This document shows, in pieces, positions 1 to 43,459 of a DNA stretch of 64,000 bases (within the stretch, counting starts at the first letter, position 1; the number at the start of each line of letters is the position of its first letter). The DNA is taken from NCBI RefSeq assembly GCF_001540865.1, contig NC_033630.1, positions 11,688,003-11,752,002 of the forward strand. The letters are read 5' to 3'. The notes under the pieces were generated by a model that made no database searches, was not told the DNA's origin, and saw only the letters and a program-made list of their open reading frames with translations. This DNA is from Ananas comosus (lineage: Eukaryota > Streptophyta > Magnoliopsida > Poales > Bromeliaceae). The position numbers and the translations under genes were made by a program.

Positions 1-197
1 GTTGTCATTTTCAAATTCGTTGATTTTATATCTTAAAAGATTATAAAATTTAAATAAAACTCTAAATAAAATCACCCTTTGATGATCTTTATAAAAGTAT
101 TTATGCTATGTCACGCACGTCATTAGAGAAGGTTGATTACCCGTATTTTCAGAGTTTATTGACTGGATTGATTTTCAATGAAAAACATAGAACGTAC

Positions 198-919
198 ATC
201 CCTACGTTTTGCCCGGTCCGCCGGGCAGCCGGCGGGCCAGGTCGTGCCGGAACCCGGTTCGACCTCGTGCCGTGCCCACGACATCGAGGGTACGGCCGTA
301 CCGGGCCTGGCTCGAACTCCCGGCACGACCGGAGAGGAAAACCCGGGCTGTGCCGGGCTTTGCCCAGACTTGGCACGAACCGGCTTCTCTCCGGGCACCG
401 GGCTGTGCTAGCACGGTCGGCTCGGTCGTGCCGGGTTTGGGGTTCCGGGAGGTCTTCTTCCCGGAACTCCAACCTAGAGGACCCGGAAAAACGGGCCTCT
501 AGAGGTGTCGTTTGGAACCCTCCTCCAAAAACCAGGTTAAAACCAGGTGACCTGATTTTGTGAAAGTTAAATAAAAAAAAATTTTTATTATTTTTTAATA
601 TATATAAAAATTTTTTCAAATTTATAAATAATATAATATTAATAAAAATTTTTTAAAATTTATTTTTATTAATAAATAAATATAAAATTTAACATATATA
701 AAAAAATTTTTTATTTTTTTTATTTGAAAAATCCCCAGCCAGGCCTCGTGTCGGTTCCGGAAGGCCCGGCTTCTCGTCACGGCCCGGTCTCTGAACCATC
801 GTAGCCGGTTCGTGCCAGGCCGGGCTTAAACCTTGGCTTTGCCCGGCCCGGCTGGGGACCGGGCTTAGCCGTGCTTTTTACACAAAGCACGACCGCTGTG
901 TCGGGTGCAATGTGGGCAT
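198..919. mobile_element. hAT-like element in mirror orientation, in intron 2 of SABATH gene 1
   Basis: GC-rich arms made of repeated gccggg/ccgtgcc motifs surround an AT-rich core (about 560-730). Read right to left, the ends are tacgggtgtaac and catcccta. Both are flanked by the same 8-bp duplication, seen here reversed as gaacgtac at 190-197 and 920-927. Gene 2 carries the same insertion with the duplication catgcaag at 36671-36678 and 39005-39012. The element (722 bp) lacks the two younger insertions present in the gene 2 copy. An 8-bp duplication and tagggatg-type ends fit the hAT superfamily. No transposase is visible. Confidence 0.85.
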
Positions 920-1691
920 GAACGTACGGGATGCGTACGTATCTATGCATGATAATTTTTCAGTAAGAAAAGGTTAATATTAATATCAACGTTATTATTA
1001 AAAAATGTTATTTGTTTTTAATAACGTTTAGTTAACGATAACACTTTTTATCAACATGAGAATTTTCAATTCGGCTATTTCTTAACACAAAGTACTGCAC
1101 CTGAACTTAATTTAACCTTTTTAATTATTACGGTTCTCATACCACACTGAGCTTAAATCTTGGAGGACTAGACTCAAGCTCGAGTGCAGTCCGAGGATTG
1201 AAATAATTAAAAGAAGTTAAATTAAGATTAGGTGTAGTACCCGGAACGTTTTTCAGTGCTCAGCTCTGTGCTCCTTTACATAATTTATATTTTTTATATA
1301 TTTATGGCCAGAAATTTTCGAATTCGAAATCTTTTGTTGCCAACAAAGTATATAAAGTGTAGTTTAGTCTCGTCCTCCAGGACTCAAACTCAGTATAGTC
1401 CGAGGATTGTAATAATTAAAAAGATTAAATTAAGTTCGGGTGCAGTAGGGTAAATTAAAGGAGGGTCGTAAAAATTAAAAGAGGGTTAAATTAAGTTCAG
1501 GTGCAGTACTTGGATGTGGTAAGAGATTGTTGAAAATCTCATGTTACTAACAAAGTGTCGATATTTAGAACACCGTTTTAAATAGTGTTATTTTATATCA
1601 AACGTTATTAAATTAAAAACTACGTTAATTTAACTATATTATCTTATTTTATAAACGACACTTTCCTGTTCCCTAGCTAATAACACACCTG

Positions 1692-2111
1692 GACCCTCTC
1701 GGTTACTTCCGATCTCCTTCTCATGCGTTTTACATTCGAGAACGATTGTTTGTTGGAGGGTATCTTTCTAGGTCCTTGAGGACTATACTTCGTTACGTGA
1801 ACAAGAACAAGTGAGAGAACATTGAAGGAAAGAGATTCGAACACTTTGAGTCCCTTATTCGATTTCTCTCACAACTTCAGCAAAGGGCCCTCCAGCAACT
1901 CCTTCTGAACCTAGAGGCTACCGGGCGCCAACTCGACTACCGAACGAACGCGTTAGCGCAGTTATTAAAGCCTCCGGTAGTCGTCACGTAAGCCTGGTTG
2001 TCTCGTCGGGTCCAGCCGTTATCAGTAGCAGCACCCCGTTTACCGACGAGCCTTACTCAGCTGCCGACGGAGAACGGAACGACAGAAGCAGTTCAAACAA
2101 TAGTAGAAGAC
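1692..2111. other. Mirrored exon 2 of SABATH methyltransferase gene 1
   Basis: Read from 2111 down to 1692 without complementing, this gives an open 420-base exon, exactly the length of exon 2 in gene 2, with ag before it (2113-2112) and gt after it (1691-1690). It encodes the SAM-binding core: the glycine-rich motif DLGCSVGPN, the NDLPGNDFNTLF loop, GVPGSFYGRLF and the substrate-side SSSSLHWLSQ. The reading has no stop or frameshift. It differs from gene 2 at scattered codons, so it is a paralogue and not a copy of gene 2's own exon. The sequence as given encodes nothing on either strand. Function is as for the gene 1 entry at 3431-7365. Confidence 0.95.
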
Positions 2112-2827
2112 GAACTTTCCTTGAATCTCAAACCAATCGTTCTCTTTTCCTCTGCACTCAAATGTACGGGCAAACACAACTTAATATATTTTGTTAGCAA
2201 TAAGAGGTTTTAAATTCGATAGTTTCTAATATAAGTTATCAAAGTAAGTACAGACTTGAACTTTGAAGCTTATCTGGGTTCTTAATTCTTAGCTTGAGCC
2301 CTGGAAAAATGAAACTATAATATAATTTAATATATTTCATTGAAATTTAGAATTCGAATATTTCTTACTATAAAAATATAAAAATATAAACCCGAGCTCT
2401 GAAAAACTGTCTGAATACTGCACCTGAACTTATAAAAACTTTAAAATACGTACGGTATCGACGAAAACGTATCTATAAAAACTGTTCCCTTGTACGTGTT
2501 TATTAATTCGATCCCAAAATCCAACACGTACGTTAATGGTTAATTCAATGTCTTCGTATATAAGACGGATTTAAAGATGTCTATGTAGTTGTACATAGGT
2601 CTTTTTTCTTTTAATACAAAATTAGACCTTTCGTTTTCCTTTTGTATATAGTGTATATATCGATCTAAGAAATCAATTTCATTTTCCGGTTCTATATGAA
2701 AATTTGGGTTTACTATCCTCAAAGATATATAAATCCGAGGTCTCTTTTCGTTAACCTTCCTAAAATTATTTTTGTTTTTTGTTCGATATAAATATAAATA
2801 TATACTATACTTCCCATTTCACGTTTG

Positions 2828-2902
2828 AACTTGTCATCTTAAGAACCGTATCGAGTACAGTGGTTGAGGTGACAAGTATACATCTTGTGAAACGTGTAGG
2901 TA
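2828..2902. other. Mirrored exon 1 of SABATH methyltransferase gene 1
   Basis: Read from 2902 down to 2828, this is an open 75-base exon starting ATG GAT GTG and encoding MDVQSVLHMNSGVGDMSYAK followed by NSTVQ. It ends at a gt donor (2827-2826). Length and phase equal exon 1 of gene 2 (32773-32847). It contains the SABATH N-terminal SYAxNS motif, which contacts S-adenosylmethionine, and the glutamine equivalent to Gln25 of Clarkia salicylate methyltransferase. The mirrored intron 1 (2112-2827, 716 bp) is much shorter than the 2335-bp intron of gene 2, which has gained MITEs. Confidence 0.94.
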
Positions 2903-3430
2903 CCTCGATATCGATATTTTCTTATCAACACCTCTTTCTATTCTCCGTATCTCGGGAAACTACTTTATCAATACGAAAATATCTCATTTACCAAACAAGA
3001 TACTAAACTTAAAGCGCACCCGGCAATAACCATGAAACCGTTTCATAACCCTCCAGATAAAGTGAATCCCACACAAACCAAACTCATTTTGATAATCTTT
3101 TTTTTTAAGCCACTTTTTTTTAAAAATAAACTTTTTTTCAAAATGCGGTAAATCACAAACCAAATATCCTTTTCTTTTTATCAAAAAGTATTATCAACAA
3201 ACCTACTTTCTTTTTTTTTTATCTACTTTTAGATAAAATATAAAAAAATAATATATATAATAATAATATAGATATAACGTAGTAAATGCTCTAAGTTGGT
3301 GTTTCTACTTTTGTCATATAGAGCATCTCTGGAAATTTTAATAAAAATAGGCCCTAGCTAAGACTTTTTTTCTTTGAAATCTATACAAAACTTATAATAA
3401 TCTCTGCAATATTTTTATTGCCTTTTTCAG

Positions 3431-6400
3431 GTGCCTCAAATGCGACTACAAGATGGAAGTGAAGTACCTCTCAACAACAAGGGAAAAATCTACATATCAC
3501 ATATTAGCCCACCAAGTGTGTTTGAAGCATATAAGAAGCAATTCAAGAGGGACTTCTCCTTGTTCCTCAAGTGCCGTAGGGAAGAGGTGGTGGAGGGTGG
3601 CCACATGGTGTTGACATTCGTGGCAAGGAGAAGCTCCAATCCCTCAACCCCCCTATTGGGTAGCTACTTGTGGGAGCTTTTGGCAAAAACACTCATGGAC
3701 ATGGCCTCACTGGTATGGTAGTTTTGTGACACCGCATTTGGCTCATTTTGCATAATTAGACCTAGCAAACTGGTGGATTGGGTAACTCGTGGATGAGTCA
3801 TTATACCCACAGATCATATGAATATAGATAAAATTAATTTACCTATAACTTTTTAGGTAATCATACCCACCCACGAGTAGGTGGGTGGGTATGCGGATTA
3901 CCTATAATTTTTTTTTTCTACTGTTATATTTTGCAAATACAAAACATATATATACAATTTTTAAAAGTATAATATAATTTATTGTTTGAAATATCATGGC
4001 ATACGATAATCAATACAAAATCTTAAAGCACATAAATTGCATAATATAGAAGTATTTTATCTTTTCAAATTTTTATAACACAAATTAAATTAATAAGGTT
4101 TTCATTGTTATAAAGTAAATATCATAAAGATTATATATTTTTTAATTAAAAAAATATATTTGTGGATACTCGTGGGTATCCGCAGGTTGCCCAAAATATT
4201 TACCACTTAACGAGTATCCACTCATTTTACCCATAATTTTTTGGATAAAAAAAACTAGTATCTATGCTCGCAAATTTTTGAGTAACCTACGTATACCCGT
4301 GGGTATGGATAGAGATTACCAGGTCTATGCAGGAAAGTATGAAGATCTAGGCTTATATGTGATGGGTATTCTAGAACTAATAACTGAGCTCAAGTATTTT
4401 GGACCAGTGGTTTGGGCCCAACAAATTATCAGTGTTAGTAGACTGTGTCTAGGGATGAAAATGGATCTGGGTTAGTGGAGCTTCTATCTCGATCCCCCTC
4501 GAATGGAGAATGTGAGAACCAAAAATATAGAAAAATATAACTTGTTTCGATCCGTCAAAAATTCGCTAAAAATCGGGCTGACGCATCCTGATCACTTGAA
4601 TTCCCTTTCTTCTTTTGATCCATCCTGATCCATCAAATATCCACCAAAAATTTGCTTTTACCCTGAATGAAGCGGTAAATGGGGGCTAAAAATAGAATAA
4701 AAATTAACCTGCCCTAAAACTGTCATGCGCCGCCCTGACAAGAAACAGATGAGCGAGAGGTTGGGGACCCCTCCTGCCTCTGAATCCACCCTGTTTGCAT
4801 CGCTATCAAGGTTTTTATAGTTGCATCCCTAGCAAGGTCATAATAGTTGGTATCAGAGCTAGTTTGCTAGTCAAAAACGTGCTGTGGGGTTTTACATCGC
4901 CCGGTGATCTTTAAATATATATATGAAACCGATTTACAAAAAAAAATGGAGCAGAATGCGGGAGACTTCTTTCTTCTTTTGATTCATCCCGATCTATCAA
5001 AAGTCTGCCAAAAATATGCTCCTGCCCCAATCCGCCTTGCCCATGAGGTAGGGGACCCTCTCCCGCCTCTGGACCTGTTTGCATCCCTAGCTAGGTCATT
5101 ACAGTTTGTATCACAGCTAGTTTACTAGCCGAAAATATGAGATGAGTTTTATATCGCCTAATGATCTTTAGCTATATGTGTGATTAACCTTACGATGGCG
5201 TCAGAGCCTAAAACAAAGGGAGTCTATGACATCCTAATAGTCCCACATTGAATAACATAGAAGGGTGAGGGGCCGATATGTGATGGACACATTAGATTAA
5301 TTAATAACCGAGTTTAATCATTTTAGCCTCGTGGTTTGGATCCGTTGCCGGATTGGAATCGAAAAAGCAATCTTTCTGTAGAATTATATTGAGCTCTTAT
5401 CTATAAAGCTTTTTGTTACAACCGTCGAATTGGAGTCGCAAAAGCAATCTTTGAGAAGAATTATATGGAGCTCTTTTCTATATAGCTTTTTAATAAAGCC
5501 TTCTCTATAGCTTTTTAATAAAGCCTTCTCTATAGCTTCTTACTGCTTTCTACTCAAGCTAGCAAACGCTCCACAGACCCATTTGGCAACGAAGGCCGCC
5601 AAATGCTTTTGTGCAAAACGAAGTTATTATTTGGATGTGGACTATTGAAATTATATCTTAATTGAATCAATACATGTAACGACTCAGCCCACTAGCAACA
5701 ATAACTCGTTGGGCCCAACAACCGGTCCAAAATGCTTAAGTCCAGTTATTATTACTAGTGTCATAAAAATGTGGGATTATTAGGGTGTGACAGACCCTCC
5801 CCGTTAAGGTCCTGGCGTCCTCATCAATCTAATTACACGCACTGCCCAAGCCTTGTCAACCTGTACCCGGCTATGCCGAGACTCGTCACACATTTTCGGT
5901 TGGTGAACTGGCTTTGATGCCAAATGTAACGACCTAGCCTACTAACAACAATAACTCTTGGGCCCAACCACCGACCCAAATTGCTTAAGCCTAGTTGTTA
6001 TCTAGTGTCTAAGTCTTTTATATATCCAATCGCATCCCCATTCCTATCCGATTTGGAATTATTAGGGTGTGACAATACAATCCAATGCAGGATTACAAAA
6101 ATCAAGGCTAAGGGCTTATTTGTTTGGGTGAGAGTGTAGAGAGGTGAAGTCGTTTTCGACTGTAAGCTATCATTTCTGCTAGCTGTTTGGTTCGCGTAAT
6201 AATATGCAGTCAAAACTTAAGTTGCTCAAAACAGCGTAATTAGCTTCGATCCACCCTGAGCCGAAGTCAATTGCGGTGAAGAGAAGTGAAAAAAAAATAA
6301 TAAAATAATATAATAGGTAATGCTAGTTATATATTTAAATATATTAATTATAGTACTAATTATTCACCTACTTGGTACCGTTTGGTTCGGGTATAAGCAA

Positions 6401-7365
6401 GAACTAGTTATTACAGGGATAGGTACAAGTATGGGGATAAGACAAAAAGTGTTTGGATGAAAATTGGTTATTTCCGGGGATAAGAAAAATAGCGTTTGGA
6501 TAGATAACATGGAGTAAGAAAAATATTATATAGTTTTATATAGAAAATGGAGGTGTTAGTGGGGATAGTTATAACCGATTATTATAGGTAACCGAAAACT
6601 ATTGTTCTCGGGTAAAAAATTAGTGTTTGGATATAAACGGGGGATAAGGGCCTATCCCTATCTCTATCCCTATCCCCTAACCAAACACTTAGATTAAATT
6701 TTTAATTATATAGAGATATAATTATATTATTTTTATTTATTATATTATAATTTATTTATTATTTATACATAAATTATAATTTTATATCATTTATCTTCTG
6801 CCAAACAAACAGCAAAGCTGAAGATAACTTTACTTTCATAGCTATGTAACAAATAGCGGGGAGAAATAGTTTTCATCCGAACTCCGTTTCAATTCAGAGC
6901 CCAGTTTCGACGAAACAAACAGGCCCAAGGCATGCATTATTTTCTAACTCTTCTCTCTCTTTTCTTTTTTTTTTTTTCTCTTCTATTCATATGTAGGGCC
7001 TTATTGAAGAGGAAAAGGTGGACTCCTTCAACTTGCCCTGGTATGAACCATCTATGGAGGAAGTGAAGAATGAGATCACAATCCAAGGCTTATTTTCCAT
7101 CAAGAAAATTGAACTCTTTGAAGTAAACCTGGATGATAATTCTCAAGAAGCCCCTCGAAATGATCATAATTACAACCCAGTGGACAAAAGTGCTCAAACA
7201 ATGGCTAAGACGGTTAGAGCTGCTCTTGAATCCGTGCTCAAAAGCCATTTTGGAGAAGCAATTATTGAGAAGCTGTTCGAGAGATACTGCTTCTTGCTTG
7301 AGGAGTATTATTCTAAGAATAAAGCTGAAGTGATCAACATACTTATTGTTCTTGAGAGAAAGTAG
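3431..7365 (+). CDS. SABATH carboxyl methyltransferase gene 1, exons 3 and 4 (5' half mirrored upstream)
   Basis: Salicylate/benzoate/jasmonate-type enzymes of the SABATH family transfer a methyl group from S-adenosylmethionine to a small carboxylic acid (or nitrogen) in the cytosol. Exon 3 is 3431-3712 after tttttcag; exon 4 is 6997-7365 after atgtag and ends in TAG. Introns are phase 0: exon 3 ends at ...MASL before gtatgg, exon 4 begins GLIEEEKVDSFNLPWYEPS. Exon 3 has the family signatures NKGKIYIS, SPPSVFEAY, QFKRDFSLFLKCR and MVLTFVARRSS. Exon 4 carries the C-terminal cap domain with the FxxLFERY-like stretch KLFERYCFLLEE. Exons 1 and 2 lie at 2902-2828 and 2111-1692 but reversed without complement. 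With the block restored the gene has 382 codons including the stop, all four exon lengths identical to gene 2. As printed, the gene is 5'-truncated. The substrate cannot be assigned. Confidence 0.93.
3713..4448. repeat. Intron 3 repeat shared by both SABATH genes
   Basis: AT-rich intron DNA with dispersed cccacgagtaggtgggtggg-type motifs and partly inverted ends (gggtaactcgtggatgag near 3780, gggtatggatagagattacc near 4302). The same structure is at 39641-40446 in gene 2, so it predates the duplication. It resembles a decayed DNA transposon. No coding capacity is seen. Confidence 0.5.
4449..5098. mobile_element. Ac/Ds-type (hAT) remnants with a retroelement primer-site fragment
   Basis: Begins ctagggatgaaaatgg (4449) and has inverted partner ends gttgcatccctag (near 4822-4834) and tttgcatccctag (near 5079-5091), the classic tagggatgcaaa end of Ac/Ds-like hAT elements. 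Between them, ttggtatcagagct near 4848 matches the initiator-tRNA-Met primer-binding sequence of plant LTR retrotransposons. The same mixture is in gene 2 intron 3 (40446-41140), so it was present before duplication. Exact borders are not resolved. Confidence 0.6.
5325..6250. mobile_element. Block private to SABATH gene 1 intron 3, with two LTR-like fragments
   Basis: Gene 2 runs straight from taatcatcttagcccc to gaagtcaattgcgatg (about 41367-41394). Gene 1 has about 920 extra bases between the equivalent points. Inside are two related stretches, 5677-5792 and 5925-6073, each beginning tgtaacgac and ending gggtgtgaca, as LTR fragments with TG...CA ends do. This is either an insertion in gene 1 or a deletion in gene 2. 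No protein domain is seen. Confidence 0.6.
6374..6690. mobile_element. MITE insertion private to gene 1
   Basis: Starts ggtaccgtttggttcggg and ends ccctaaccaaacactt, imperfect inverted ends of the 'gtttggtt' type. The orthologous point in gene 2 (about 41478-41485, attattctttt) is empty. Internal gggataag/cttatccc runs resemble the element at 15018-15870. Borders are uncertain by a few bases. Confidence 0.6.
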
Positions 7366-8290
7366 AAAGGTTTTTTTTTTTTTTTTTTGTTAAAATAAGT
7401 TTGATGCATGAACACTTCGGGTCGTACTTTTAATAGAAAGATATAAAAAATGGATACATGGATATATGTTACTTTGATTACCCTTAAGCTTCCACATGTG
7501 GATGTTATCATGATGTGTAGAAGCTACAACTCTATGCATGAGATGTTTATTCTGTACGTATGGTGCTGCATTGTTAACTATAAAACTTGGCATCAGTAAT
7601 ATTGTTTGATATTAGACCAAAAAAATATATATTTGATATTCTATTGTTAATGTGACTTTGTGTGTTGTTCGGTTAATGATATTGTTTATAAATAAATTTT
7701 TAGATTGAAGTTTACTTGTTCTTGTATGATCATATATATGATTATGTAATATGGTTTGTTTTTATTTATTCTTAGGATTATTTGCATACACGTCCTTCCA
7801 AACATAGTAAATTGCGAAAATATTCCTGCAAAACGGAAATTTCAAAAGTTATCCCTGCAAAAATCTTAAGTTATGCAGATAAGTCCCTGCCGTTAAGGAC
7901 TGTTAGAAAATTTTCGTTAACCACGATTAAAATACTTAACCATAGTTAATTACAACGTGAATTTACGGTTCTACCCTTCTTCTTCTTCCTCCTCTTCTTT
8001 CCTCTTCTTCGTCGCCGACGAGGGCGGCGGCGGCGGCGGCGACGGCGGCGGCGGCAAACCCTCTCCCTCTTTCTCTTCCTCTTCTCTCTTCCTCTTCCCC
8101 TTTTTTCTTCCTTTTCCTTCTTCCAATTGCTTTTCTCTGGAGCCTAAATATATAGAAACTCCTATCATTTGGGCTTAAAAGTATATCTTGGCCTTTTACT
8201 TTAACTAAAGAATCTAGCTATATATGTGATATATGTTTTCCTTTTGCTTTCCAGATTAAAACATAATTTTCTGTTTTCTGGATACATGTT
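7366..8290. other. Downstream of SABATH gene 1: 3' UTR and low-complexity DNA
   Basis: The first 80 bases (poly-T tract, then taagtttgatgcatgaacac) are shared with gene 2 downstream (42185-42260), which marks the right limit of the duplication. Positions 7975-8115 are a CTT-rich tract followed by GGC repeats (8027-8054), compositionally simple and coding-like only by chance. No gene is seen. Confidence 0.6.
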
Positions 8291-8990
8291 GAAGTATATG
8301 CGATATCATTTGCCTAGTGATCGAAGGGGCTCAAAATCAATAATTTTAACGGTCATGGTGAAACGATATTAAAAAATCGCAAAATTTATTTTCTAGGTAC
8401 TTCAAATACTCTAGATCAACTCTAACGGAGCCGATCGTCGATTCGAAAGTCCGAACATTGAAAACAAAGTGGAAGCACGGAGCCCTCCGTGCTTCCATAA
8501 GCATCCTAACCGCACTATATATATATATATATGTGGATGTCAACGCAACGGGATGGATTCGAACCCGAACCCAACTCCAAATCAGAAACCCCTACCCAAA
8601 CCTGACAGGTTTTAAAAATTCATACTTAAATCCGAACTCGATAAAAAATTTGAAATCCGAATCCGAACCCGAACCCGAACCAAAAAATCTAAACCCGAAA
8701 CAATTATTTCTCTTTTCAATATTTCAATATATATTATATTAAACCTATTTTTTTTTAAATACAAATTCAAATATAACATCAAATTTTATATACATATTAT
8801 ATATAATAATGTAAAATAAATTCGGATTCGGGCCAAGTTCAAGTTCGGATCGGATACAATCAAAATCCATATCTAAATGAATATCCGTCGGGTTTTTATT
8901 TTTGATATCCATGTCCGAAATCATATCCATTTAGCATCAGGTAAATCCGCTCCGTTCGGATTCGGATTCGGATAAAATTTCGGGTATCCG
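8290..8990. mobile_element. Partial foldback MITE, then degenerate hAT-like repeat
   Basis: 8290-8520 is the right half of the foldback MITE family found throughout the window (tttgcctagtgatcgaag, ggagccgatcgtcgattcg, ggagccctccgtgcttcc). 8545-8990 has cgaacccgaaccc repeats at the left and inverted ttcggattcggat and cgggtatccg at the right. That is the pattern of low-complexity hAT elements like those at 9805 and 37059, but clean ends or a duplication were not found. Confidence 0.5.
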
Positions 8991-10566: not shown

Positions 10567-11629
10567 GGGAAACCGAAGCCAAAAATGTTCTGAGATGTGC
10601 ACAAACCCACCATATGGATATATAGAAACTCTTCTGTATAAATGGCTAGAATAGAATCTTTCATATACATATATGGCATAGAAATTTAGAGTACAATAAC
10701 ATTTTGGGCGAGGTTTGAAAATTGGTTCCACTACTTTCGGTACAGTCTGGCCAAAAAAGTAACGTTTTTCATTTCATTGAAAATTGTCTAATTTTACAAA
10801 ATAGCTAACCCTTCTGAATCTCATTTATTTAAAATCTCGGTTTCTACAATAAATGCCCATTTCATCTAATTACACAAAAAAAAAAGAAAGAATAAACATG
10901 CCCATGTTAGATAGAATATACACACATGCTCCAAAATAAGTCCAACAACCTTTGATAATTAAACACTCAATCTAGCATGAGACATATATGCATGTAAATT
11001 TTTAAAAAATAAAAAAGAGAAAAAAGGCATTATATATATATATATATATATGAATTAGGCTGGAATACTATTAATAGTAAAACGCTCTTTTTACTATCAA
11101 GTTTTTAACCCTTGGATGAAAAATTGTATATCGTGATTTACGAAGCACGATAGTTATCATAGGGTCAATTTGATATATATATCTCAACCCGACCCGATGA
11201 TAATCATCGTTTTAAGGTAACAACGATGGTCAAAAAATCGGAAATCTAGTTGAGAAAAGTAATAAAGATTGGTAACCTAATTTATGATATTGGGTCACCC
11301 CTGGTGAGTTGGGATCCCCCTGGTGAGTTGAGATTGGCTGATTATAGTAGGACTGGGNATTTAGAAACTAAATTTCATAATTTTTCGATATCATTTACCT
11401 ATCAAACAAGTAGTCTAAAATTGAACGGCTGAAAATAAAAATCTCATAAAAAATGATGATAAAAGATTTAAATTCAAGATCAGATATACTGATCTTACTC
11501 TAAATAGTGAAAAGAATTTTTTATAAAATTTTCATCGCATTTGAATTGTTTTACACCGTTAAACTCACAAACACACCACATCAGCCATTAAAATTGTCAA
11601 TTTTGAGATCTTTTAATCATATATATATA

Positions 11630-12152
11630 TGAGTCCAGCTGCTATACTATCGATAGCACGGGGCCTCCGTGCTACCAAGTTGTTTCGATGATGCGGCTTC
11701 CAAATCGACGATCGGCTCCGTTAGACTTGATCCACACTATTAAAAGTATTTGAAAACTAAATTTCAAATTTTTTCGACAGCATTTGACTAGTGATCAAAA
11801 GATCTCAAAATTGACAATTTTAATGGCCGATGTGATGTGTTTGTGAGTTTAACGGTGTAAAACAATCCAAATCCGATAAAAATTTAATAAAAAATTCTTT
11901 TCACTATTTAGAGTAAGATCAGTATATCTGATTTTGAATTTAAATCTTTTATCATCATTTTTTATGAGATTTTTATTTTCAGCCGTTCAATTTTAGACTA
12001 CTTGTTTGATAGGTAAATGATATCGAAAAATTATGAAATTTAGTTTCTAAATACTTTTAATAGTGTAGATCAAGTCTAATGGAACGGATCGTCGATTTGG
12101 AAGCCGCATCATCGAAAACAACTTGGTAGCACGGGCCCTCGTCCACGATAGT
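11630..12152. mobile_element. Foldback MITE, full length
   Basis: Left end gctgctatactatcgatagcacgg...cctccgtgctacc is mirrored by the inverted right end ggtagcacggg...tagtatagtagc. Long inverted arms include cgatcggctccgttag near 11711 and its degenerate complement near 12085. It is inserted next to ta repeats and a CT microsatellite (12165-12202). It is the reference member of the family described in the findings. Confidence 0.75.
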
Positions 12153-12162
12153 ATAGTAGCCT

Positions 12163-12207
<45 letters not shown>

Positions 12208-12249
12208 CTTCTCCTTCTATATATATATATATAATATATATATATATAT

Positions 12250-14340: not shown

Positions 14341-15014
14341 CTCCAGTTTCAACTAACATATTCAACTAAGTGAACATCACATATACTTAGTCTCTTCTAA
14401 TGTCTTAAAAGTGGGATTTAAAGAGCCCACCAAATCACATATTTTAATTATATATTGACATTGTTTAATGTGCTATTTTAGTAATATCTTTTTGAGCTTG
14501 GTGAGCGGGCTTTATTACTTTGGACCTAGTAAACATCTGGAAAATTGGTTTAGTTGTGCATGCTTTTTCAATGAACCTTCTACTCCTGTGGCTATTGAAA
14601 GGGACACAAATTGCAATGGTGTTAGATAACTTGTGTGATGAATTTTTGAGTTTCTTTTGTATTGGCTGAGTCACAAATTTTTACCACTTGAAACTTTTGA
14701 TTAGAGAATGCATGAAGCCTTAATAATATAGCTAATGCTTTTGCTTGCACGCCATATATATAGTTTGTTGATGATCTCAGATTTAAGTGCATCTGTTGAA
14801 GAGTGCAGTGTTATTTGATGAATTATTTTTTTATTAGAATTACTAGGAGAAGCATTGTACTATCTTTTATTGCATAATCAAAATTTTTAAATTGAGACTA
14901 CATCTTTTGAGACTCATAATCTTATTTCTAATTTCTTATCATTATAATAGAAATTCTGAACTTTTTTGTTTGTCCAACACTTTTACTGAAAAGTCACTAA
15001 AAACTGCTAAACTT
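14341..15014. other. Intergenic, upstream of the minus-strand peptide gene
   Basis: AT-rich DNA without repeats I recognise. It should contain the promoter of the 13833-14340 gene, but no convincing TATA box was singled out. No coding region is supported. Confidence 0.5.
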
Positions 15015-15017
15015 TTA

Positions 15018-15870
15018 GGCCCCGTTTGGATCGCGGGCATAATTATATCATGTTAATTATTAAAATATTATTTTTATTACATAATATTATTATTATATAT
15101 TGTATAATATAAATATATTAAATCAAATTAAGTTAAATATTCAAATTAATTCAAACTTTAATTCATAACCTTATCGTGATAAGGTGGTTTTACCACCTTA
15201 TCGTTTAGGGAACGATAAGGCCCTATTGGCTCTTATCGTTCTAAACTGGCCCTATTTTATAAGGCCGGTTTAAAGTGGGGCAAACCGCCTTATCGCCCCT
15301 ATTGAAAGCAATAGGGGCGAATANATAAATTATTTTTATTAATTGTTCCCACCACTATTCTTATTTTAAAATTTTAAAAATTAAAAATTTAAATTTTTAA
15401 AATTTATAATTTATAATCTCAAAATTAAAGTTTAAAATTTAAATTATAAATTATAAATTATAAATTTAAATTTTGATATTTTAAATTTATGAAATTTAAA
15501 ATTTGATATTTTATATTTTTTAAATTTAAATATGATCTTAAATTTAAAGTTTGAAATTTAAAATTTAAAATTTTGAATTTAAAATTTGAGATTTTAAATT
15601 TCAAAGTTAAAATTTTAAATTTAGAAATATAAATTTAAAATTTTAAAAATTCAAATTCAAATATAATAAGTGGATAATATAATTATTTTTTATTTACAAA
15701 ATCCATTATCTTTCTTATTCCATCTTATCTAACCAAACGCTATTTTTTTTATTCCAGAAATAACCCAATTTTCATCCAAACGCAAAATTGATCTAATCCT
15801 CGCTTATACCTCAATTTATACCTATCCCTGGAATAGTCACTTTTTCCTTATCCCCAAACCAAACGATACC
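15018..15870. mobile_element. Tourist-like (PIF/Harbinger-type) element
   Basis: Starts ggccccgtttggat (15018) and ends ccaaacgatacc (15870), imperfect inverted ends of the 'gtttgg' class, flanked by tta at 15015-15017 and 15871-15873. The interior is AT-rich with a palindromic ccttatcg/cgataagg section (15170-15300). A single N lies at 15324, so internal length is uncertain. Confidence 0.7.
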
Positions 15871-20198: not shown

Positions 20199-20934
20199 GG
20201 CTACAATACTATCGATAGCTCCAAGCACTTTGTGCTATTAAGTTTTCTCGTGTTAGATCAACCCCCTTGACCATTTTCACCCGTTATATCATACTATTCA
20301 ACCAACCACCCACTAAACCCTAGGGGACAACTATCATCATAACCATACATCGTTTCTTCCAAGGGCTGAAAACTTAATAGCATCAATGACTTTGTGCTAT
20401 TAATAGTACTCTAGCCTAGTTCTCTCNCCTCCGTGCTACTAAGTTGTTTTCAATGATGCGGCTTCCAAGTCGACGATTGGTTCTATTAGACTTGATCTAC
20501 ACCATTAAAAGTATTTGAAAACTAAATTTCATAATTTTTCGATATCATTAGGCTAGTGATCAAAAGGTCTCAAAATTGATAATTTTAATGGTCGATATGA
20601 TACGTTTGTGAATTTAACGGTGTAAAACAATCCAAATCTGATGAAATTTTTATAGAAAATTCTTTTCACTATTTAGAGTAAGGTCAGTACCTTTGATCTT
20701 AAATTCAAGTATTTTTTTATTATTTTTTATGAGATTTTTATTTTCAGTCGTTCATTTTAGACTACTCGTTTCATAGATAAATGGTGCCGAAAAATTATGA
20801 AATTTAGTTTTCAAATACTTTTAATAGTGTAGATCAAGTCTAATGGAGCCGATCGTCGATTTGGAAGCTGCAACATTGAAAATAACTTGGTAGCACGGAG
20901 GCCTCCGTGCTACCGATAGTATACCAGCCTAGCG

Positions 20935-20991
<57 letters not shown>

Positions 20992-21611
20992 GAGAGAGAC
21001 TCTCTCTCTCTATATATATATATATAAAAAGAGAAAGAGAAAGAGAGAGAGAGAGAGAGAGAGTCTGACTACCATATTCTTATATATGAATACGATTGTT
21101 TTCGTATTCATAAGTCATTTTCGATGATAGAGCGCTTCTGAATCGACATCCATACTGTTAAATATTATCTAGAACATTTAAAACTTCTAGAAAATAAATT
21201 TCATAATTTTTCGACATTATTTACCTTACAATCAAAATGTACAAAATTGACAATTTTTAACGGCCAGTATGAAGTACTTGCTAGTTTAACTGTGTAAAAA
21301 AATTAGAATATATTAAATTTTTAATAGAAAATTCTATTCACTATCTAGATAAAGATTAATAACTCCAATCTTAAATTGAAGGATCCGATCATCCATTTTT
21401 GGGACGTCGTTTGATTTTTACCATTCATTTTATACCCACTTTATAGATTTTATTATGATTTCAAAAAATTATAAAATTTATTTTTTAGAAGTTTTAAATA
21501 CTCTAGATCATATGTAACAGAGTGGATCATCGATTCGGAAGCCCCATCATTGAAAATAACTTATGAGTACGAAGAACTCTATATTCATAAGAATATAGCA
21601 AAACTACTCTC

Positions 21612-25940: not shown

Positions 25941-25997
<57 letters not shown>

Positions 25998-26002
<5 letters not shown>

Positions 26003-26538
26003 GCGTCTGGTATGCTTATGGAAGCACGGAGCGCTCCGTGCTTCCACTTTGTTTTCGATGTTCAGACTTTCGAATCGACGATCGCTCCGTTAGACTTGAT
26101 CTAGAGTATTTGAAGTATCTAAGAAGTAAATTTGCGATTTTTCGATATCATTTGCCTAGTGATCGAAGTGGCTCAAAATCAACGGCTGAAAATAAAAATC
26201 TTACAAAATATGATGATATGACATTAAAATTTTAGATCAAAGTTATTGATCTTGTTTTATGTGGTATAAAGAATTTTCTATCAAAATTTCATACGATTTG
26301 GATATTTCTACACCGTTAAACTTGCAACCGGCTCACCACGGCCATTAAAATTATTAATTTTGAGCCCCTTCGATCACTAGGCAAATGATATCGAAAAATC
26401 ATAAAATTTATTTTCTATGTACTTCAAATACTCTAGATCAACTCTAACGGAGCCGATCGTCGATTCGAAAGTCTGAACATCGAAAACAAAGTGGAAGCAC
26501 GGAGGGCTCCGTGCTTCCATAAACATACCAGCCTACTC

Positions 26539-26577
<39 letters not shown>

Positions 26578-32149: not shown

Positions 32150-32609
32150 ATTTTACTATTCTATAATCTGCACTTTACCATCCTATGATTTACAAGAAAT
32201 ATATATAATCACTTTACCCCTTTTAATGCAGAATAATTAAATGCAACTTTTTGAACCACACGAGGCGGTGAAATAAAAAATACGCTAAATCATATTGGGG
32301 CATATTGAAGTTTACACAACAATAAATAAAATGGATACTACTAATATAAAATTTGCGTATGTATGTATTTGCAGTGTGTGGATTTGGACATTGATATGTT
32401 GATACCTGATATACATATATGTCCATATCATCTCAAATATCTCAGATATTATTGTGTGTTAATTAGAATGAATGTATCAGTGACATAAATACATAATAAA
32501 TAAGTTGAGGTTTGCTTAAAGAAGAATATTGTTTGGAGCATATGGAATGTATGGTTGATTGTACAGTTCATGACCTTAATTTGTGAAATATTGGGTGATT
32601 CATAATATG

Positions 32610-32610
32610 N

Positions 32611-32682
<72 letters not shown>

Positions 32683-32772
32683 CAAACCATGAACTCTACA
32701 AAAGCCTAACTTATCTCAACTAAGGGCTCTAACTTTCTCAGCAGCTATTCGTTTATATATAGCCACAGCTCC
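32610..32772. other. Microsatellite and 5' flank of SABATH gene 2
   Basis: An N at 32610 is followed by (ct)n and (ta)n (32611-32679), then about 90 bases (gaacaaaccatgaactctac onwards) that match the mirrored flank of gene 1 (3000 down to 2903). This is the upstream limit of visible homology between the two SABATH genes. The break at an N suggests an assembly join. Confidence 0.6.
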
Positions 32773-34581
32773 ATGGATGTGCCAAGTGTTCTACACATGA
32801 ACAGTGGAGTTGGCGACATGAGCTATGCTGAGAATTCCACCATTCAAGTTAATTTGAACCTACACCCTCCTACTTATATGTATTTATATATGTTATATAT
32901 TTGACTTTGCTTTCCAAATATATATATATTTCTGCATGCATGTTTGCGTATCTGTGGAAATTTACACAGGATATATATATGCTTTCCAAATAATATATGT
33001 ATTTATAGTGCTTGTTTGGTCAGATTGGAGGTAGAATAACTTTTACATCCTTCCAAATGCTTTTCACTTAAGCCTAAATAGAAACTTCAATTCTATCATT
33101 TGGGCTTAAAAGTTTATCTTGGCCTTTTACCTTCACTAAAGAACCTAGCTATATATATACGTTATATATTTGACTTTGCTTTCCATATACATATATATAT
33201 ATATATAGAGTTGAGCTGGAATGCTATCGGTAGCAAACGGGCTCCGTTGCCACCCATTTGTTTTCGATGATGGAGCTTTCAAATCAACGATCGGCACTGT
33301 TGAACATGATCTATATCACTTAAAGTATTTAGAAATTAAATTTCAAATCTTTTCGACATCATTTACCTAATGATCAAAGGGTTTCAAAATTAGTAATTTT
33401 AATGGTTGATATGAGGGGTTTTTTCGTTTAACGGTGTAAAGCTATCCAAATCAATTGAATTTTGGTTAGAAAATTCTTTAAACTATTTAGAACAAGATCT
33501 ATATTCTCGATCATGATTACAAAATTTCTATCATCACTTTTTAGAGGATATTCATTTTCAGCCATTTATTTTTACGCCCACTTGATGGACAAGAAAACAA
33601 TATCGGAAAAGTATGAAATTTGATTTCTAGATACTTCAAGTGGTATAGATCATGTTCAACGATGTCGATCGTCGATTTGGAGGCTCCATCATCGAAAACA
33701 AATGGGTGGCAACGGAGCCCGTTTGCTACCGATAGTATTCCAGCTCAACTCTATATATATATATATATATATATAGAGTCCGGCTACTATACTATCGATA
33801 GTACCAACCCCTTGGTACTATTGAGTTTTTTACCGTTAGATCTACCCTTTGATCATTTCCATCCGTTAGATTATATTATTAAACTAACCATTCACTCAAC
33901 CCTAGGGGACCACTATCAATTTAACCGGGGACCACTATCATCCTAACCGCACATCTTTTCATCCAACGGCCGAAAACTCAATAGTACCAAGGGCTTGGTA
34001 CTATTGATAGTATAGTAGTATAATTCTATATATATATATATATAGTTGAGCTAGAGTACTATCGATAGCAAACGGGCTCCGTTGCCATTCATTTGTTTTC
34101 GATGATGGAGCCTCCAAATCAACAATCGGCACCGTTGAACATGATCTATACCACTTGAAGTATATAGAAATCAAATTTTATACATTTTCGATATTGTTCT
34201 CTTATCCATCGAGTGGATACAAAAATGAACGGCTGAAAATGAATATTCTTTAAACAATAATGATAGGAGTTTTGTAATCAAGATCAAGAGTGTAGATCTT
34301 GTTTTAAATAGTTTAAAGAATTTTCTAACAAAAATTCAATTGATTTGGATATCTTTACGCCATTAAACGAGAAAATGTCTCATATCGACCGTTAAAATTA
34401 CAAATTTTGAAACCTTTTGATCATTGGGCAAATGATATCGAAAAGATTTGAAATTTGATTTCTAAACACTTCAAGTGGTATAGATCATGTTCAACGGTGC
34501 CGATCGTCGATTTGGAGGCTCCATCATCGAAAACAAATGGGTGGTAACGAAACTCGTTTGCTATCGATAGTATTCTAGCTC

Positions 34582-34657
<76 letters not shown>

Positions 34658-37600
34658 CTGCATGCATGTTTACGTATCTGTGGAAATTTACACAGAATAT
34701 ATGCTTCTGTAACTTAGTTGGTACGTAGTTGCAAGCATAATCTAAAGTCCTAGAATAATTAATTATTTGTGCATGTCCCTTATCAAGAATATCTATGAAA
34801 GTAGCTATTGCATATGTAAAATTTAAAAATATTCAAGTCCACGCCATGAGTCTATCTAAAAGTCTAGAATCCAGACGTGAGGGAATTAAAGTACTAAATA
34901 TAAAAATATAAAAATATCATCCTCTATATGTTTAAGTTTTTAAAGAATAACGATTATTTTATGTAATTTAATATAACACCAGAGTAAGAAAGTTCTGAGT
35001 TTGAGCCCTCATATCTTGGGTCTTTTAAAAAGTTTTAAGTCTAGATGTGAGAGAGAGTAATGTTAAATATAAAATATACAAATGTCATTCTCTTATAGAT
35101 TAAGTTCTCGAAAATAACAATTGTTTCATATAATTTCACCTCTCTTTCTCTCTCGCTAACCAAACTCTGAGATCCTTTCAAGCAGAAGATGATAGCAAGC
35201 TTCGCGAAAACAGCACGGCAAGAGGCAGCCGTCGACTCATTCCGAGCAGCCATTTGCCCCACAAAGATGACTATCGCCGACCTGGGCTGCTCAGTCGGTC
35301 CAAATGTACTACAAATGGCCTCCGAGATCTTCGAGGCGATTGAGCAGGCAAGTCATCAGCTCAACCGCAAGCCACCGGAGATGCAAGTCTTCCTCAATGA
35401 CCTCCCGGGAAACGATTTCAACACTCTCTTTAGCTTATTGCCTGAGTTTCACAAGCTTAGAGAAAGGAAGTTACAAGAGAGTGAACAAGAACAAGTGCAT
35501 TGCTTCATATCAGGAGTTCCTGGATCTTTCTATGGGAGGTTGTTTGTTAGCAAGAGCTTACATTTTGCGTACTCTTCCTCTAGCCTTCATTGGCTCTCCC
35601 AGGTCCACACAACAATCCCTTATCCTTTCACAGCAAATATTTTATTCTATTATATTAATTTAATTGCATCAAAAATTAAATTATTGCAAACTATATTTTA
35701 TTGCAATAATTTTTGCCACAAGATTCATAGCTGTGAAACAATTATTGTACTCTAAAAGTTGTTAGAGAACGGTAAAGGTCCATGACGTGCGTGGACTTGA
35801 ATTAAATGAGAGAAAATTAATAATGCTAGAAGCCTGATATGACTCGAACTCAGGACCTTCTACTTTGATACTATGTGAAATATATGAAACAACTGTTGTT
35901 CTCTAATTAAAGCTTAAGTTTTTAAAGACCGGTGTTTGTATATTTTTTATATTTGATACTTTTTCTTATGTTTGGACTCGAGACCTTTTGCAAGGCTTAT
36001 GATGTGGACTAAAATTAAATTGAAGAAAATTAATAAAGTTAGGAGCCCGACGTGACTCGAATTCAGAGCAGGAGGTCCTAAGTTCGAGTCACACCATACT
36101 CTTAGCATTATTAATTTTTCCAATTTAATTCTAGGAGGACGTGGACTTGAATTAAATGGGAGGACGTGGACTTGAATTAAATGAGAGAAAATTAATAATG
36201 CTAGGAGCCTGATATGACTCGAACTCGGGACCTCATGTTCTGTTATTATGTGAAATATATGAAACAACCGTTGTTCTCTAAAGGTTAAGTTTTTAAAGAC
36301 CAATGTTTGTATATTTTTTATATTTAAAATTTTTCCTCATGTCTGGACTCGAGACCTTTTGTAAGGCCCATAATGTGGACTAGAATTAAATTGAAGAAAA
36401 TTAATAAAATTAGGAGCCTGACGTGACTCGAATTCAGAGCAAGAGGTCCTATGTTCGAGTCACACCATACTCTTAGCATTATTAATTTCCTCAGTTAATT
36501 CAAGTCCACGTCATGAAACACCATTCTTTATCAGCTTAATTCAACGGTTTTTTCACAATAACAATTTATTTGCAATAATTTTTGTTTATTGTAAAAAATT
36601 ATTATTGCAACGATAATTATAATTGGAAAAGAATGATTTTCTAATAGTATGTTTTTATGCATGCGTAGGGCATGCAAGTACGGGTGTAATGTGGACCGTG
36701 CCGGGCCAGCATGGCCCACAATTTTGGTGCCGATTCGGGCCAGGAGTCGGCCCGGCCAGGCCTAATTCCAAATTCGGACCGGGCCGTGCTTGGCCGAAGC
36801 CCGGCACGGCCCTTCGGCTCGGAAGGCCCCGGCCGTGCTACTGAACGGCCTCTAAAAGGTTATTTTTTAAAAAAAATATATACAATTTAAAATATAAATA
36901 AATAATTATTTTTATTTAAAAATTTAAAATTTATAAAAATAATTATAATATAACAAATATCTAAAAATTTTAAAAAAATATAAATAATTTTTTAAGTATT
37001 TTTTTAAAGAATTTGAAAGTGTTTTTGGTCCATCTCCTCCCAAGAGGTTTGCTATGGCTAAAGGTGTCCGTGGACAGGATCGGGTCTGGATAGTTGATAT
37101 CTTGTACCCGTACCTAAAAAAAAATGGTTAGAAAAAAAAAAAACCCTACCCATTTACCTTCGGGTCGGGTCTGGATCTGAGTACTTAAGTTACTAATATA
37201 TCCATCGGGTCTATTTGAGCGGGTCTGGGTAGTGACTATCCGTATAATATCCGTTCAAAACCGTATACGGGTCGGGTACGGGTACCTATATATATATATA
37301 TTATAGACTTTATTAAATTGTTTGGGTAAAACTTGTTCCGGCCATTATATTTACTGATTAAAAGTCTAAAATTCAAAATAATTTTATATGTAAATACACA
37401 AAAATTAAAAAATTATGATACCATATTATAGATAAAAAGAATATAAGTTGTAATACTAATATTATATACTAACATTCAAAAAAAAAGGGTAAAAAAATAA
37501 AGATGAATCAGAAAATTTATTGAATAGAATATTCATTAAAAAAAACTAGATTGTCGACTATGATTGGAGAAGGGATTTGGAAAAAAAAAACTCACTTGTA

Positions 37601-40600
37601 CCACACCTATAAAGGATTAATATCGCTAATGATAATGACGATGGAAATATTGTTTCATAAAAAACTCTTAGGCGGAAATGAAGCAAAAAAAATAAAGAGT
37701 AAACAAATTAGAAAAAAGAAAGTAGTAAAAGAGCGGCTAGGGTTTCAGTATTTTCCTAGGATGAAAATATTTAGAGATCCCTCGTCTATAAGTTCTATTA
37801 AAATTGATCCCTCAATTTTAAAAGCTCAGAACTTTTATATTTGTTATTGGATATTTCATCGGGTCCGGATCCGGGTCCGGATCCGGATTTAAAAACTATT
37901 CTGGACCCTACCCATTTAAAAGTTGGGTTCGGATCAGGTCCAAATCGGCTATGGGTATAAAATATCTGGACCCATACCCGAAACTTTTTTAACCCGTATA
38001 TTATCCATTTTTTATCGGGTCCAGATAGGATCTGGGTAGGGTCCGGGTTGGGTATGGTATATCGGATATTTTGGATAGCTTTAGCTGTGGCAGACCTTGG
38101 GAGGAGATCTCCTGGGCAGAAGGGCCCAGGAGATCCAACCCCAAGACCCTTCTCCTGGCCCGGCTGGCACGGCCGTGCCGGGCCACGGGCCTTTCTTCGG
38201 CCAGACACGGTACAAACCAGTTTCGGACTGTGTCGGGCCAGACCATCGGGCCCAAAAAGAGAGGCCCAGCACGGCCCTCAAGTTCGGCCCGGGCCGTGCC
38301 AGAATGGGTGCTACATAGGGGTGGTAATCCAGCTCGCTGTTCGCGAGCTAGTTCGTGTTCGGCTCGAAATGAGTTCAAAATCGAATCGCTCGTTTAGTAA
38401 ACGAGCCGAACACGAGTTGAATTTTTCAGCTCGTTAAATAAACGAGCTGAATACGAGCTGGGATCAGCTCGTTCGTGTTCAGCTCGATAACAGCTCGAAT
38501 ACATATATTTTATATTAATATAATTTATTTAATATATATATATATATAAATAAATAATTATATATATAATATATATTTTTATTATTTCGTTTTTAGAAAA
38601 ATTAAAATATAAAGTCGAGCTCAATTATAAAAAAACTCATTTATATGTAAAGTTTCAACCATTGATCAAAGTCTAATGGGTAACATTTTACAAATTTAAT
38701 TTTTATATATATCTAATCTAATTCTTTTAACTTATTGTTCGTTGGCCGGCTTGTGAGCCAGCTCGTGTTCGGCTAGTTTATTAACAAGCCAAACACGAGC
38801 CGAATTTTTCGGCTCAATACTTTAACGAGTCAGCTCGTGTTTGGCTCATTTATTAAACGAGCCGAACACGAGCCGGCCCCAACTCGCTCGTGTTCGGCTC
38901 GTTGACACCCCTAGTGCTAGGGCACCCATGCTGTGCTCCATCCCAGCCCGAGGCCGTGCCGGACCGGGCAGCCTACGGGCCGTCCGGCCCGTTTTACATC
39001 CCTACATGCAAGATACAAAAAGTAACTTTTAGTTAGGTCAAGTTGGTTGAGACTTTTATCCCCATTAGTGGGAAGAAATTACTTCACGCACTGTATGGTA
39101 TTTATGAAAATATTTCTAGTAGTTTCCCACTAAAATAAATCTCAAAAAAAATTTAAAATATTAGAAAATTCTATATTTTAGTTGCTTAAACTTTTACTGT
39201 TGATAGATATAACGTAGTAAATGCTCTAAGTTGGTGTTTCTACTTTTGACATATAGAGGCATCTCGGGAAATTTTAGTAAAAATAGGCCCTAAGACTTTT
39301 TTTTTTGAAATCTATACAAAACTTATAATAATCTCTACAATATTATTGCCTTTTTCAGGTGCCTCAAATGCAACTACAAGATGGAAGCGAAGTCCCCCTC
39401 AACAACAAGGGAAACATCTACATATCACATGCTAGCCCACCAAGTGTGTTTGAAGCACATAAGAAGCAATTCAAGAGGGACTTCTCCTTGTTCCTCAAGT
39501 GCCGTGGGGAAGAGGTGGTGGAGGGTAGCCACATGGTGTTGACATTCGTGGCAAGGAGAAGCTCCGATCCCTCAACCCCCCCAATGGGTTGCTACATGTG
39601 GGAGCTTTTGGCAAAAGCACTCATGGACATGGCCTCACTGGTATGGTAGTTTTGTGACACCGCATTCGGCTCATTTCGCATAATTAGACCTAGCAAACCG
39701 GCGGATTGGATAATCCGCGGGTGAATCATTATACCCACAGGTCATATGGGTATAGGTTAAAATCAATTTACCTATAATTTTTTAGGTAGTCAACAGCTTT
39801 ATCTATACCCATGCGCCCACGAGTAGGTGGGTGGGTATGGAGATTACCTACAATTTTTTTTTTTTTTTTTTTTTTATACTGTTATACTTTTCAAATACAA
39901 AACTTATAAATAAAATTTTTAAAAGTATAATTAATATAACTTATTGTTTGAAATATCATGGCATACCATAATCAATATAAAATCTTAAAGCGCATAAATT
40001 GCATAATATAGAAGTATTTTATCTTTTCAAATTTTTATGACACAAAATTAATAAGGTTTTCTTCTTTTTTTTTTTTTGAGGAAAAAATTAATTAATAAGG
40101 TTTTCATTGTTATAAAGTAAATAACATAAATATTATATATTTTTTAATTAAAAAATATATATGCGGATACTCGTGGGTATCCGCAGGTTGTCCAAAATAT
40201 TTACCACTTAACGGGTATCCACTTATTTTCTCCATAATTTTTTGGATAAGAAAAACTAATACCATACTAACAAATTTGTGAGTAACCTACATATACTCGC
40301 AGGTATATATGGATAGAGATTGACAAGTGTATACATAATGTGGGAAAGTGTGAAGAGGCTATATGTGATGGGCACTCTAGAACTAATAACTGAGCTCAAT
40401 CATTTTGGACCAGCGGTTTGGGCCCAACAAATTATCCGTGTTAGTAGGTTGTGTCTAGGGATGGAAATTTATCTGGGTTGGTGGAGCTTCTATCCCAATC
40501 CCCCTTGAATGGAGAATGTGAGAACCAAAAATATAGAAAAATATAACTTGTTTCGATCTGTCAAAATTTTGTTAAAAATCGGGCTGAAACATCCTGATCA

Positions 40601-41765
40601 CTTGAGTTCCCTTTCTTCTTTTGATCTATCCTGATCCATTAAATATCCACCAAAAATTTGCTTCCACCTTGAATGAAGTGGTAAATGGGGGCTAAAAATA
40701 GAATAAAAATTAACCTGCCCTAAAACTGTCCTGCCCCGCCCTGACAAGAAACAAACGAGCGAGAGGTTGGGGACCCCTCCTGCCTCTGAATCCACCCTGT
40801 TTGCATCACTATCAAGGTTGTTGTAGTTGCATCCCTAGCAAGGTCATTATAGTTGGTATCAGAGCCAGCTTGCTAGTCGAAACATCGCCTGGTGATCTTT
40901 AAATGTACATATGAAACCAATTCACAAAAAAAATAGAGCATAAGACGGGAGACTTCTTTCTCCTTTTGATTCATCCCGATCTATCAAAAATCAGCCAAAT
41001 ATGCTCCTGCCCCAATCCGCCTCGAATAAAGCAGTAAATGGACGATAAAAATAGGACAAAAGTTAGTCCGCTCCAAATCCGCCTTGCCCAAGAGGTAGGG
41101 GATCCCCTCCCGCCTCTGGACCTGTTTGCATCCCTAGCTAGGTTATTACAGTCTGTATCACAGCTAGTTTACTAGCCAAAAATATGAGGTGAGTCTCATA
41201 TCGACTAATGATCTTTAACTATATGTGTGATTTACCTTACGATGGCGTCAGAGCCTAAAACAAAGGGAGTCTATGACATCCTAATAGTCGCACATTGAAT
41301 AACATAGAAGGGTGAGAGGCCGATATGTGATGGACACATTAGATTAATTAATAACCGAGTTTAATCATCTTAGCCCCGAAGTCAATTGCGATGAAGAAAA
41401 GTGAAGAAAAAATAATAAAATAATATAATAGATAATGCTAGTTATATATTTAAATATATTTAATTATAGTACTAATTATTCTTTTCGATTAAATTTTTAA
41501 TTATATAAGGATATAATTATATTCTTTTTATTTATTATATTATAATTTATAATTTATTAATTTATTTATTATTTATATATAAATTATAATTTTATATCAT
41601 TTACCTTCTGCCAAACAAACAGTAAAACTGAAAAAAACTTTGCTTTCATAGCTATGTAACAAATAGAGGGGGAGAAATAGTTTTCATCCGAACTCCATTT
41701 CAATCCAGAGCCCAGTTTTGACGAAACAAACACGCCCAACACATGCATTATTTTCTAACTCTCCT

Positions 41766-41796
<31 letters not shown>

Positions 41797-42184: not shown

Positions 42185-42530
42185 AGAGTTTTTTTTTTTT
42201 TTGTTAAAATAAGTTTGATGCATGAACACTTTGGGTCTTACTTTTTATTGAAAGGGAATCTTGTACTCTAATACCATATTAAATTACGTGGGGCAACTAT
42301 TATTCTGATCGACTCAAAAGTTTATTCTATCAGTGTGACACCTCAATAGTTCTACATTGAATTATGTGTGGAAGTGTGATGAATTTATAAGTGACAGACA
42401 TATTAGTAATAATAACTGGATTTAAATACTTTCAACCCAAGTTCGAATTCTAGTTGATTCACTTTTCCAGCTAAGTTTATTTTTAAATGAAATAAACGAA
42501 ATGGGTAGCGTGCTACCTATCTCTCAAATA

Positions 42531-42624: not shown

Positions 42625-43402
42625 GTTGAGCTATGATACTTTTACAAGTATCACCATCATGGTGCTATTAGGTTTTAAGCCATTGGATCTACTTTTTGAT
42701 TATTAATAGTCCTTGGATTAAACACTATTCCACCTACCACCACCTACCACCATCATCTCAACCTCACATCTCTCCATCCAAGGGCTAAAAACACACAAGT
42801 ATCACCCCCATGATACTTTTACAAGTATTCTAGCCCTACTCTATATATATATATACATATATATATATAGAGTGAGGCTACTATGCTATCGGAAGCATAG
42901 AGCCTTCTGTGCTTCCAGCTCGTTTTCGATGTTGCGACTTTTGAATCGTCGATCGGCTCCGTTAAACTTGATCTAGAGTATTTGGAGTACCTAGAAAATA
43001 AATTTTATTATTTTTCGATATCATTTGCCTAGTGATCTAATCGGCTCAAAATCAACAAATCGTAGTGAGCCGTTTGCAAGTTTAACGGTGTAGAAATATC
43101 CAAATCACATAAAATTTTGATAGAAAATTCTTTATACTATATAAAACAAGATCAATATCTTTGATTTAAAATTTTAATGTCATATTATTACATTTTGTAA
43201 GATTTTTATTTTCAACCGTTGATTTTGAGCCCCTTCGTTCACTAGGCAAATGTTATCGTAAAATCATAAAATTTATTTTCTAGGTACTTCAAATACTCTA
43301 GATCAAGTTTAACGGAGCCGATCGACGATTCGAAAGTCGCAACATCGAAAACAAGCTGGAAGCACGGAAGGCTCCGTGCTTCCGATAGCAAAGTAGCCTC
43401 AC
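42625..43402. mobile_element. Short MITE followed by full-length foldback MITE
   Basis: Short MITE at 42625-42845. Foldback MITE at 42872-43402: left gtgaggctactatgctatcg, inverted right gatagcaaagtagcctcac, with arms of about 165 bases (gcctagtgatc/cactaggc mark their inner ends). Followed by a (ct)n tract (43408-43458). Confidence 0.78.
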
Positions 43403-43405
43403 ACA

Positions 43406-43459
<54 letters not shown>

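Follow-up and report, generated by a model that had tools for sequence, protein, structure and literature searches.

The question raised by this locus is why its first 3,267 bases resemble nothing else around them when they are searched in the usual way, and whether the answer lies in the plant or in the text. The first-pass annotation of the window (the whole 64,000-nucleotide stretch of pineapple DNA analysed here) had claimed that 1-3267 is mirrored without complementing, since the reversed text aligns to a second gene copy, gene 2, and had placed the join at about 3267/3268. We found that the mirrored block is indeed a real property of the printed text. It can be described as follows:

1 to 3267, no strand assigned: block printed in plain reverse, or, equivalently, its minus strand complemented without reversal (evidence: alignment, word model and join score).

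When 1-3267 was reversed without complementing and compared with gene 2, the best aligned piece reached 1011 bits at 83% identity. The matching pieces were collinear across the gene 2 region 32677-39202, with identities of 80-92%:

1 to 286 in the block, with 38916 to 39202 (91.6% identical)
281 to 427, with 38155 to 38315
451 to 505, with 38103 to 38158
550 to 1458, with 36150 to 37032 (83.9% identical)
1466 to 2604, with 34655 to 35827 (83.0% identical)
2626 to 2762, with 33047 to 33185
2825 to 3002, with 32677 to 32850

The end-to-end match to gene 2 that had been claimed thus holds as collinearity over 2845 of the 3267 bases but does not extend to 3003-3267, for which the reversed text had no match in the gene 2 comparison. 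Read on both of its normal strands, 1-3267 gave no match at E ≤ 1e-3 elsewhere in the window, not even to gene 2 (low-complexity filter on). Accordingly, the comparison of the two orientations came out in favour of the plain reversal over the reverse complement, and the prediction that a standard two-strand search misses the block was confirmed within the window. Controls underlined the specificity of the alignment. In a comparison of the whole reversed window with itself, matches at E ≤ 1e-8 always involved one partner in 1-3267. Eighteen other blocks of 3267 bases, which span 3268-62073 and leave the final 1927 bases of the window outside this control, reached a maximum of 47.3 bits after plain reversal, and none had a match at E ≤ 1e-8.

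To examine the right edge of the block, we fixed the left edge at window base 1, reversed the first 50 bases and placed them directly before position n+1, with n ranging from 3258 to 3277; each construct was then scored against 39153-39252. The cut at n = 3267 was best with a score of 98, compared to at most 91 for the other 19 cut points. The restored join of base 1 to base 3268 lies inside 100 bases that are identical to gene 2 (54 to the left, 46 to the right), shows neither a gap nor an overlap, and brings exons 1-2 to exons 3-4 of the gene that we refer to as gene 1:

3267 to 3268, no strand assigned: false join; the restored order runs from base 1 to base 3268, as 39202 runs to 39203 in gene 2 (evidence: join score and identity run).

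Because base 1 belongs beside 3268, the reversal begins right at window base 1, and we infer that the altered text likely began there. No N marks the 3267/3268 join, although single Ns are found at five other positions in the window; we counted this against an artefact. Two other extents of the mirror were considered and rejected, namely a wider one reaching past 3267 and one confined to a repeat.

With the block turned round, gene 1 and its paralogue are composed of the following parts:

2828 to 2902, read right to left, no strand assigned: exon 1 of gene 1, 75 bases, with donor GT
1692 to 2111, read right to left, no strand assigned: exon 2 of gene 1, 420 bases, or 417 with the second AG (1692 to 2108)
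3431 to 3712, plus strand: exon 3 of gene 1, in normal order, 282 bases
6997 to 7365, plus strand: exon 4 of gene 1, in normal order, 369 bases including the stop
32773 to 42184, plus strand: gene 2, the intact paralogue in normal order, with exons at 32773-32847, 35186-35602, 39359-39640 and 41816-42184

Two exons with splice sites had been reported as readable from right to left, and both could be restored and joined in frame to exons 3-4. Their lengths had been given as exactly 75 and 420 bases, as in gene 2. This is correct for the first, while the second measures 417 or 420 bases depending on the AG chosen in the tandem acceptor AAGCAG, equally in both genes. The pineapple models P0002, P0004 and P0008 read QQKM, which corresponds to the 420 form. 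In the 417 form, the four exons of gene 1 join in frame to encode a protein of 380 residues, which agrees with that of gene 2 at 340 of 381 positions (89%) when the stop is counted into the alignment. A single Methyltransf_7 domain (PF03492) occupies residues 47-379 and scores 403.6 bits, above the cut-off of 29.8; across all 380 residues, the protein furthermore matches salicylic acid carboxyl methyltransferase (1m6e) at 1.1e-87. Named by homology, restored gene 1 is thus a predicted carboxyl methyltransferase gene. It shares with the known SAM-dependent enzymes both the domain and the similarity over its full length, and there is nothing unusual about its enzyme in comparison with them; the oddity lies only in how exons 1-2 are printed. 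The family goes by the name of SABATH. Gene 1 (1-7365) and gene 2 (32773-42184) form a tandem of carboxyl methyltransferase genes with equal exon lengths and proteins that are 89% identical. Downstream of the methyltransferase genes, an armadillo-repeat reading frame resembling the ARM region of plant U-box proteins (PF25598, PF00514) is located at 47783-48634 on the plus strand. RNA families and tRNAs were searched for in the window, and none were found.

The differences between the two genes carry information on the direction in which the block was once read. Exons 1-2 differ at 39 positions, of which 8, 7 and 24 fall on codon positions 1, 2 and 3, respectively (13 each if even), and the right-to-left reading keeps a coding stretch of 164 codons open. 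With 24 of the 39 differences at third positions, exons 1-2 were likely under selection in their right-to-left reading. In that case, genes 1 and 2 would have diverged while exons 1-2 were in normal order, and the mirror would have come later. The third-position gauge is not general, given that the differences in exons 3-4 (17, 8 and 10 by codon position) show no third-position excess. Codon differences with and without an amino acid change numbered 17 and 19, respectively, in exons 1-2, compared to 24 and 8 in exons 3-4. On the basis of these counts, the C-terminal half of the two methyltransferases may be under relaxed or diversifying selection.

The block furthermore contains an element and a repeat copy that have counterparts in normal order elsewhere in the window:

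198 to 919, no strand assigned: element of 722 bases, 50% GC, in an intron and also present in gene 2, with 8-bp duplications at 190-197 and 920-927
2579 to 2759, no strand assigned: mirrored repeat copy, which after plain reversal is 97.8% identical to 8120-8300
8120 to 8300, plus strand: repeat copy in normal order, the counterpart of mirrored 2579-2759

The transposon and its 8-bp duplication had been listed among the features that read correctly only from right to left. Both exist, the duplication appearing as GAACGTAC in print and as CATGCAAG from right to left. However, such a duplication and inverted ends provide no evidence of direction, because a plain reversal preserves them. The support that the element lends to the mirror is its similarity to gene 2: read from right to left it reaches 209 bits, whereas the printed text scores no more than 43.6 bits against any other part of the window. 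The element, which is presumably hAT-like, was found by eye, after a scan under strict criteria for matching ends flanked by 8-bp duplications had yielded none within the block. Gene 2 carries the same 8-bp duplications at 36671 and 39005, and the insertion therefore likely predates the split of the two genes.

Alignment-free evidence was obtained with a strand-symmetric word model of order 5, which was trained on the remainder of the window and used to compare the log-likelihood of the printed with that of the reversed text. Block 1-3267 scored -147 nats, whereas the 18 other blocks, each excluded from its own training, scored +44 to +192. The minimum of the running sum was located at 3281, 14 bases off the edge derived from the alignment. 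When 8061-8360 and 32601-42300 were held out of the training, 1-3267 was negative throughout orders 1 to 5 (-32.0, -42.9, -69.1, -76.7 and -79.2, respectively). The three gene 2 blocks were positive in the same test, apart from a single block at orders 1 and 2 (-4.7 and -2.3), which we counted against this line of evidence. In steps of 500 bases, all six segments wholly within the block were negative versus 6 of 122 others, the latter starting at 10001, 11001, 15001, 37501, 45501 and 58001; the weakest of these were 10001 and 58001 (-1.4 and -2.3). The four most negative outside segments (11001, 15001, 37501 and 45501) provide no evidence for more mirrored blocks. No within-window match at E ≤ 1e-5 was found in either reading for 14901-15600, 37401-38050 and 45401-46000, and 10901-11358 showed short within-window matches both ways, the best being 60.2 bits as printed and 49.1 bits reversed. 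At 15001-15500 the words fit a reversal somewhat better (-18 nats), and a single N as well as AT-rich simple sequence lie inside this segment.

Public pineapple gene models offered an independent view of the locus. The best nine of 120 listed protein matches were all from Ananas comosus. Exon 2 of P0003 is 98.6% identical to the reversed block over 144 residues, compared to 90.3% for gene 2, and that of P0006, from var. bracteatus, is 100% identical over 139 residues, compared to 89.9% for gene 2. P0007, in turn, is a 100% match to exon 2 of gene 2; P0003 and P0007 are listed on contigs of equal length (456,674 bases). Both P0003 and P0006 place exon 2 of gene 1 before its exons 3-4, an order that was established by comparison at the protein level for exons 2-4 only. 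P0003 lacks exon 1 and the end of exon 3, while P0006 lacks exon 1 and changes its reading frame within exon 4, at around residue 284. As far as these two models reach, the locus reads normally in other pineapple records, which makes the printed block most likely wrong. Their differences to the reading of the window suggest that P0003 and P0006 come from records other than its own. A mirrored public record would be expected to leave a truncated or a spurious gene model. The open reading frame at 66-563 had no database match at E ≤ 0.01 that would represent a spurious public protein, and no model consisting of exons 3-4 only was among the nine matches to these exons at E ≤ 1e-60. We counted the absence of such models against an artefact in the record.

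Taken together, the mirrored block is most likely not biology. Since exon 2 precedes exon 3 in the normal way in public pineapple models, we are highly confident that 1-3267 is an artefact of the text, wherever it was made. In the likely scenario, a short piece that opens a scaffold went through just one half of the reverse-complement step. Two routes would lead to an identical text: a plus-strand piece may have been reversed with the complementing omitted, or a minus-strand piece may have been complemented with the reversing omitted. The latter would be the simpler slip and probably the likeliest route, because minus-strand pieces need both steps on joining, and half of this operation leaves the piece in place, as seen here. 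The piece itself would then be correctly placed, and its text alone would be wrong.

Single Ns at 11358, 15324, 20427, 27577 and 32610 break up the window, leaving pieces of 4-31 kb. Repeat self-matches begin directly after three of them (at 11359, 20428 and 27578), a pattern that would arise if one N had been used to link contigs within repeats. Related repeats of about 0.5-0.6 kb with mutual matches in both orientations are found at 11619-12237, 20428-20992, 25943-26554, 33185-34587 and 42851-43477. Should the Ns be contig joins, they would fit a pineapple assembly made up of short contigs. Contig N50 values of 0.02 Mb for F153 and 0.05 Mb for MD2, compared to 0.42 Mb for CB5 and 2.97 Mb for GL1, are given in Table 1 of PMC8824783. 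The literature searched on pineapple assemblies named no program as the culprit.

A text artefact might also have been made outside the public record. According to this explanation, the record contains no such error, and the reversal of the first 3267 letters happened afterwards, in preparing or passing on the text of the window. This would account for a block that starts at window base 1, as the fit of the restored join indicates, and for the lack of any trace of the mirrored text in two protein searches. The normal order of the public models points the same way, though these are likely from other assemblies. However, a window taken from a scaffold start with a mis-oriented first piece predicts the same edge, and we assign to a later reversal a sizeable but minority share of our confidence in a text artefact. 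It appears rather unlikely that the public record holds the block as the outcome of a systematic software fault, in which case mirrored pieces that are invisible to searches would be present at scaffold ends, in other assemblies too, and be counted as novel or lineage-specific sequence.

A true mirror-image copy in the plant DNA, generated by a parallel-strand process hitherto not described, has the printed text as its sole support and is extremely improbable. Known replication, recombination and transposition preserve strand polarity, and none of them is known to produce a plain reversal; the earlier statement that inversion, gene conversion and transposition cannot give one is thus supported. 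Such a copy would also have to be recent, considering the 164 open codons, the predominance of third-position differences and the near-identical repeat copy. In addition, exon 2 is in normal order in two pineapple gene models, and the edge falls on the very first base of the text. A match by chance or composition, through AT-rich or palindromic words, might be invoked given the AT-rich and GC-rich stretches of the block and its plain-complement matches of up to 78.7 bits at 1093-1447, likely its inverted repeats, but was rejected as practically inconceivable, with the control blocks far weaker than 1011 bits and with splice sites and 164 coding codons restored. An ordinary inversion of the 5' half of gene 1 would likewise part exons 1-2 from exons 3-4, but is refuted by the lack of any reverse-complement match at E ≤ 1e-3 elsewhere in the window (low-complexity filter on) and is equally negligible.

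The text artefact has counterparts of two kinds. As in a mis-oriented assembly piece, a stretch of sequence runs the wrong way between definite bounds and regains its true neighbours on turning. The usual error, however, leaves a reverse complement, which a two-strand search detects, whereas 1-3267 underwent one step only. The same text operation has been used deliberately: according to the Dfam paper, reversed, non-complemented sequence serves as a benchmark for false positives (PMC4702899). In contrast, the block described here stands in sequence presented as natural. The open-licence literature that was searched contained no report of a plain-reversed block in a deposited genome, which is weak evidence of absence.

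With regard to data quality, a plain-reversed block is overlooked by two-strand searches and may pass as novel sequence, and a gene model would be truncated by it. Reversal without complementing followed by alignment, and the word-model comparison of the two reading directions, can be applied to whole assemblies to gauge the frequency of such blocks. For the biology of pineapple, the mirrored block likely has no significance, as the gene is normal in other pineapple records.
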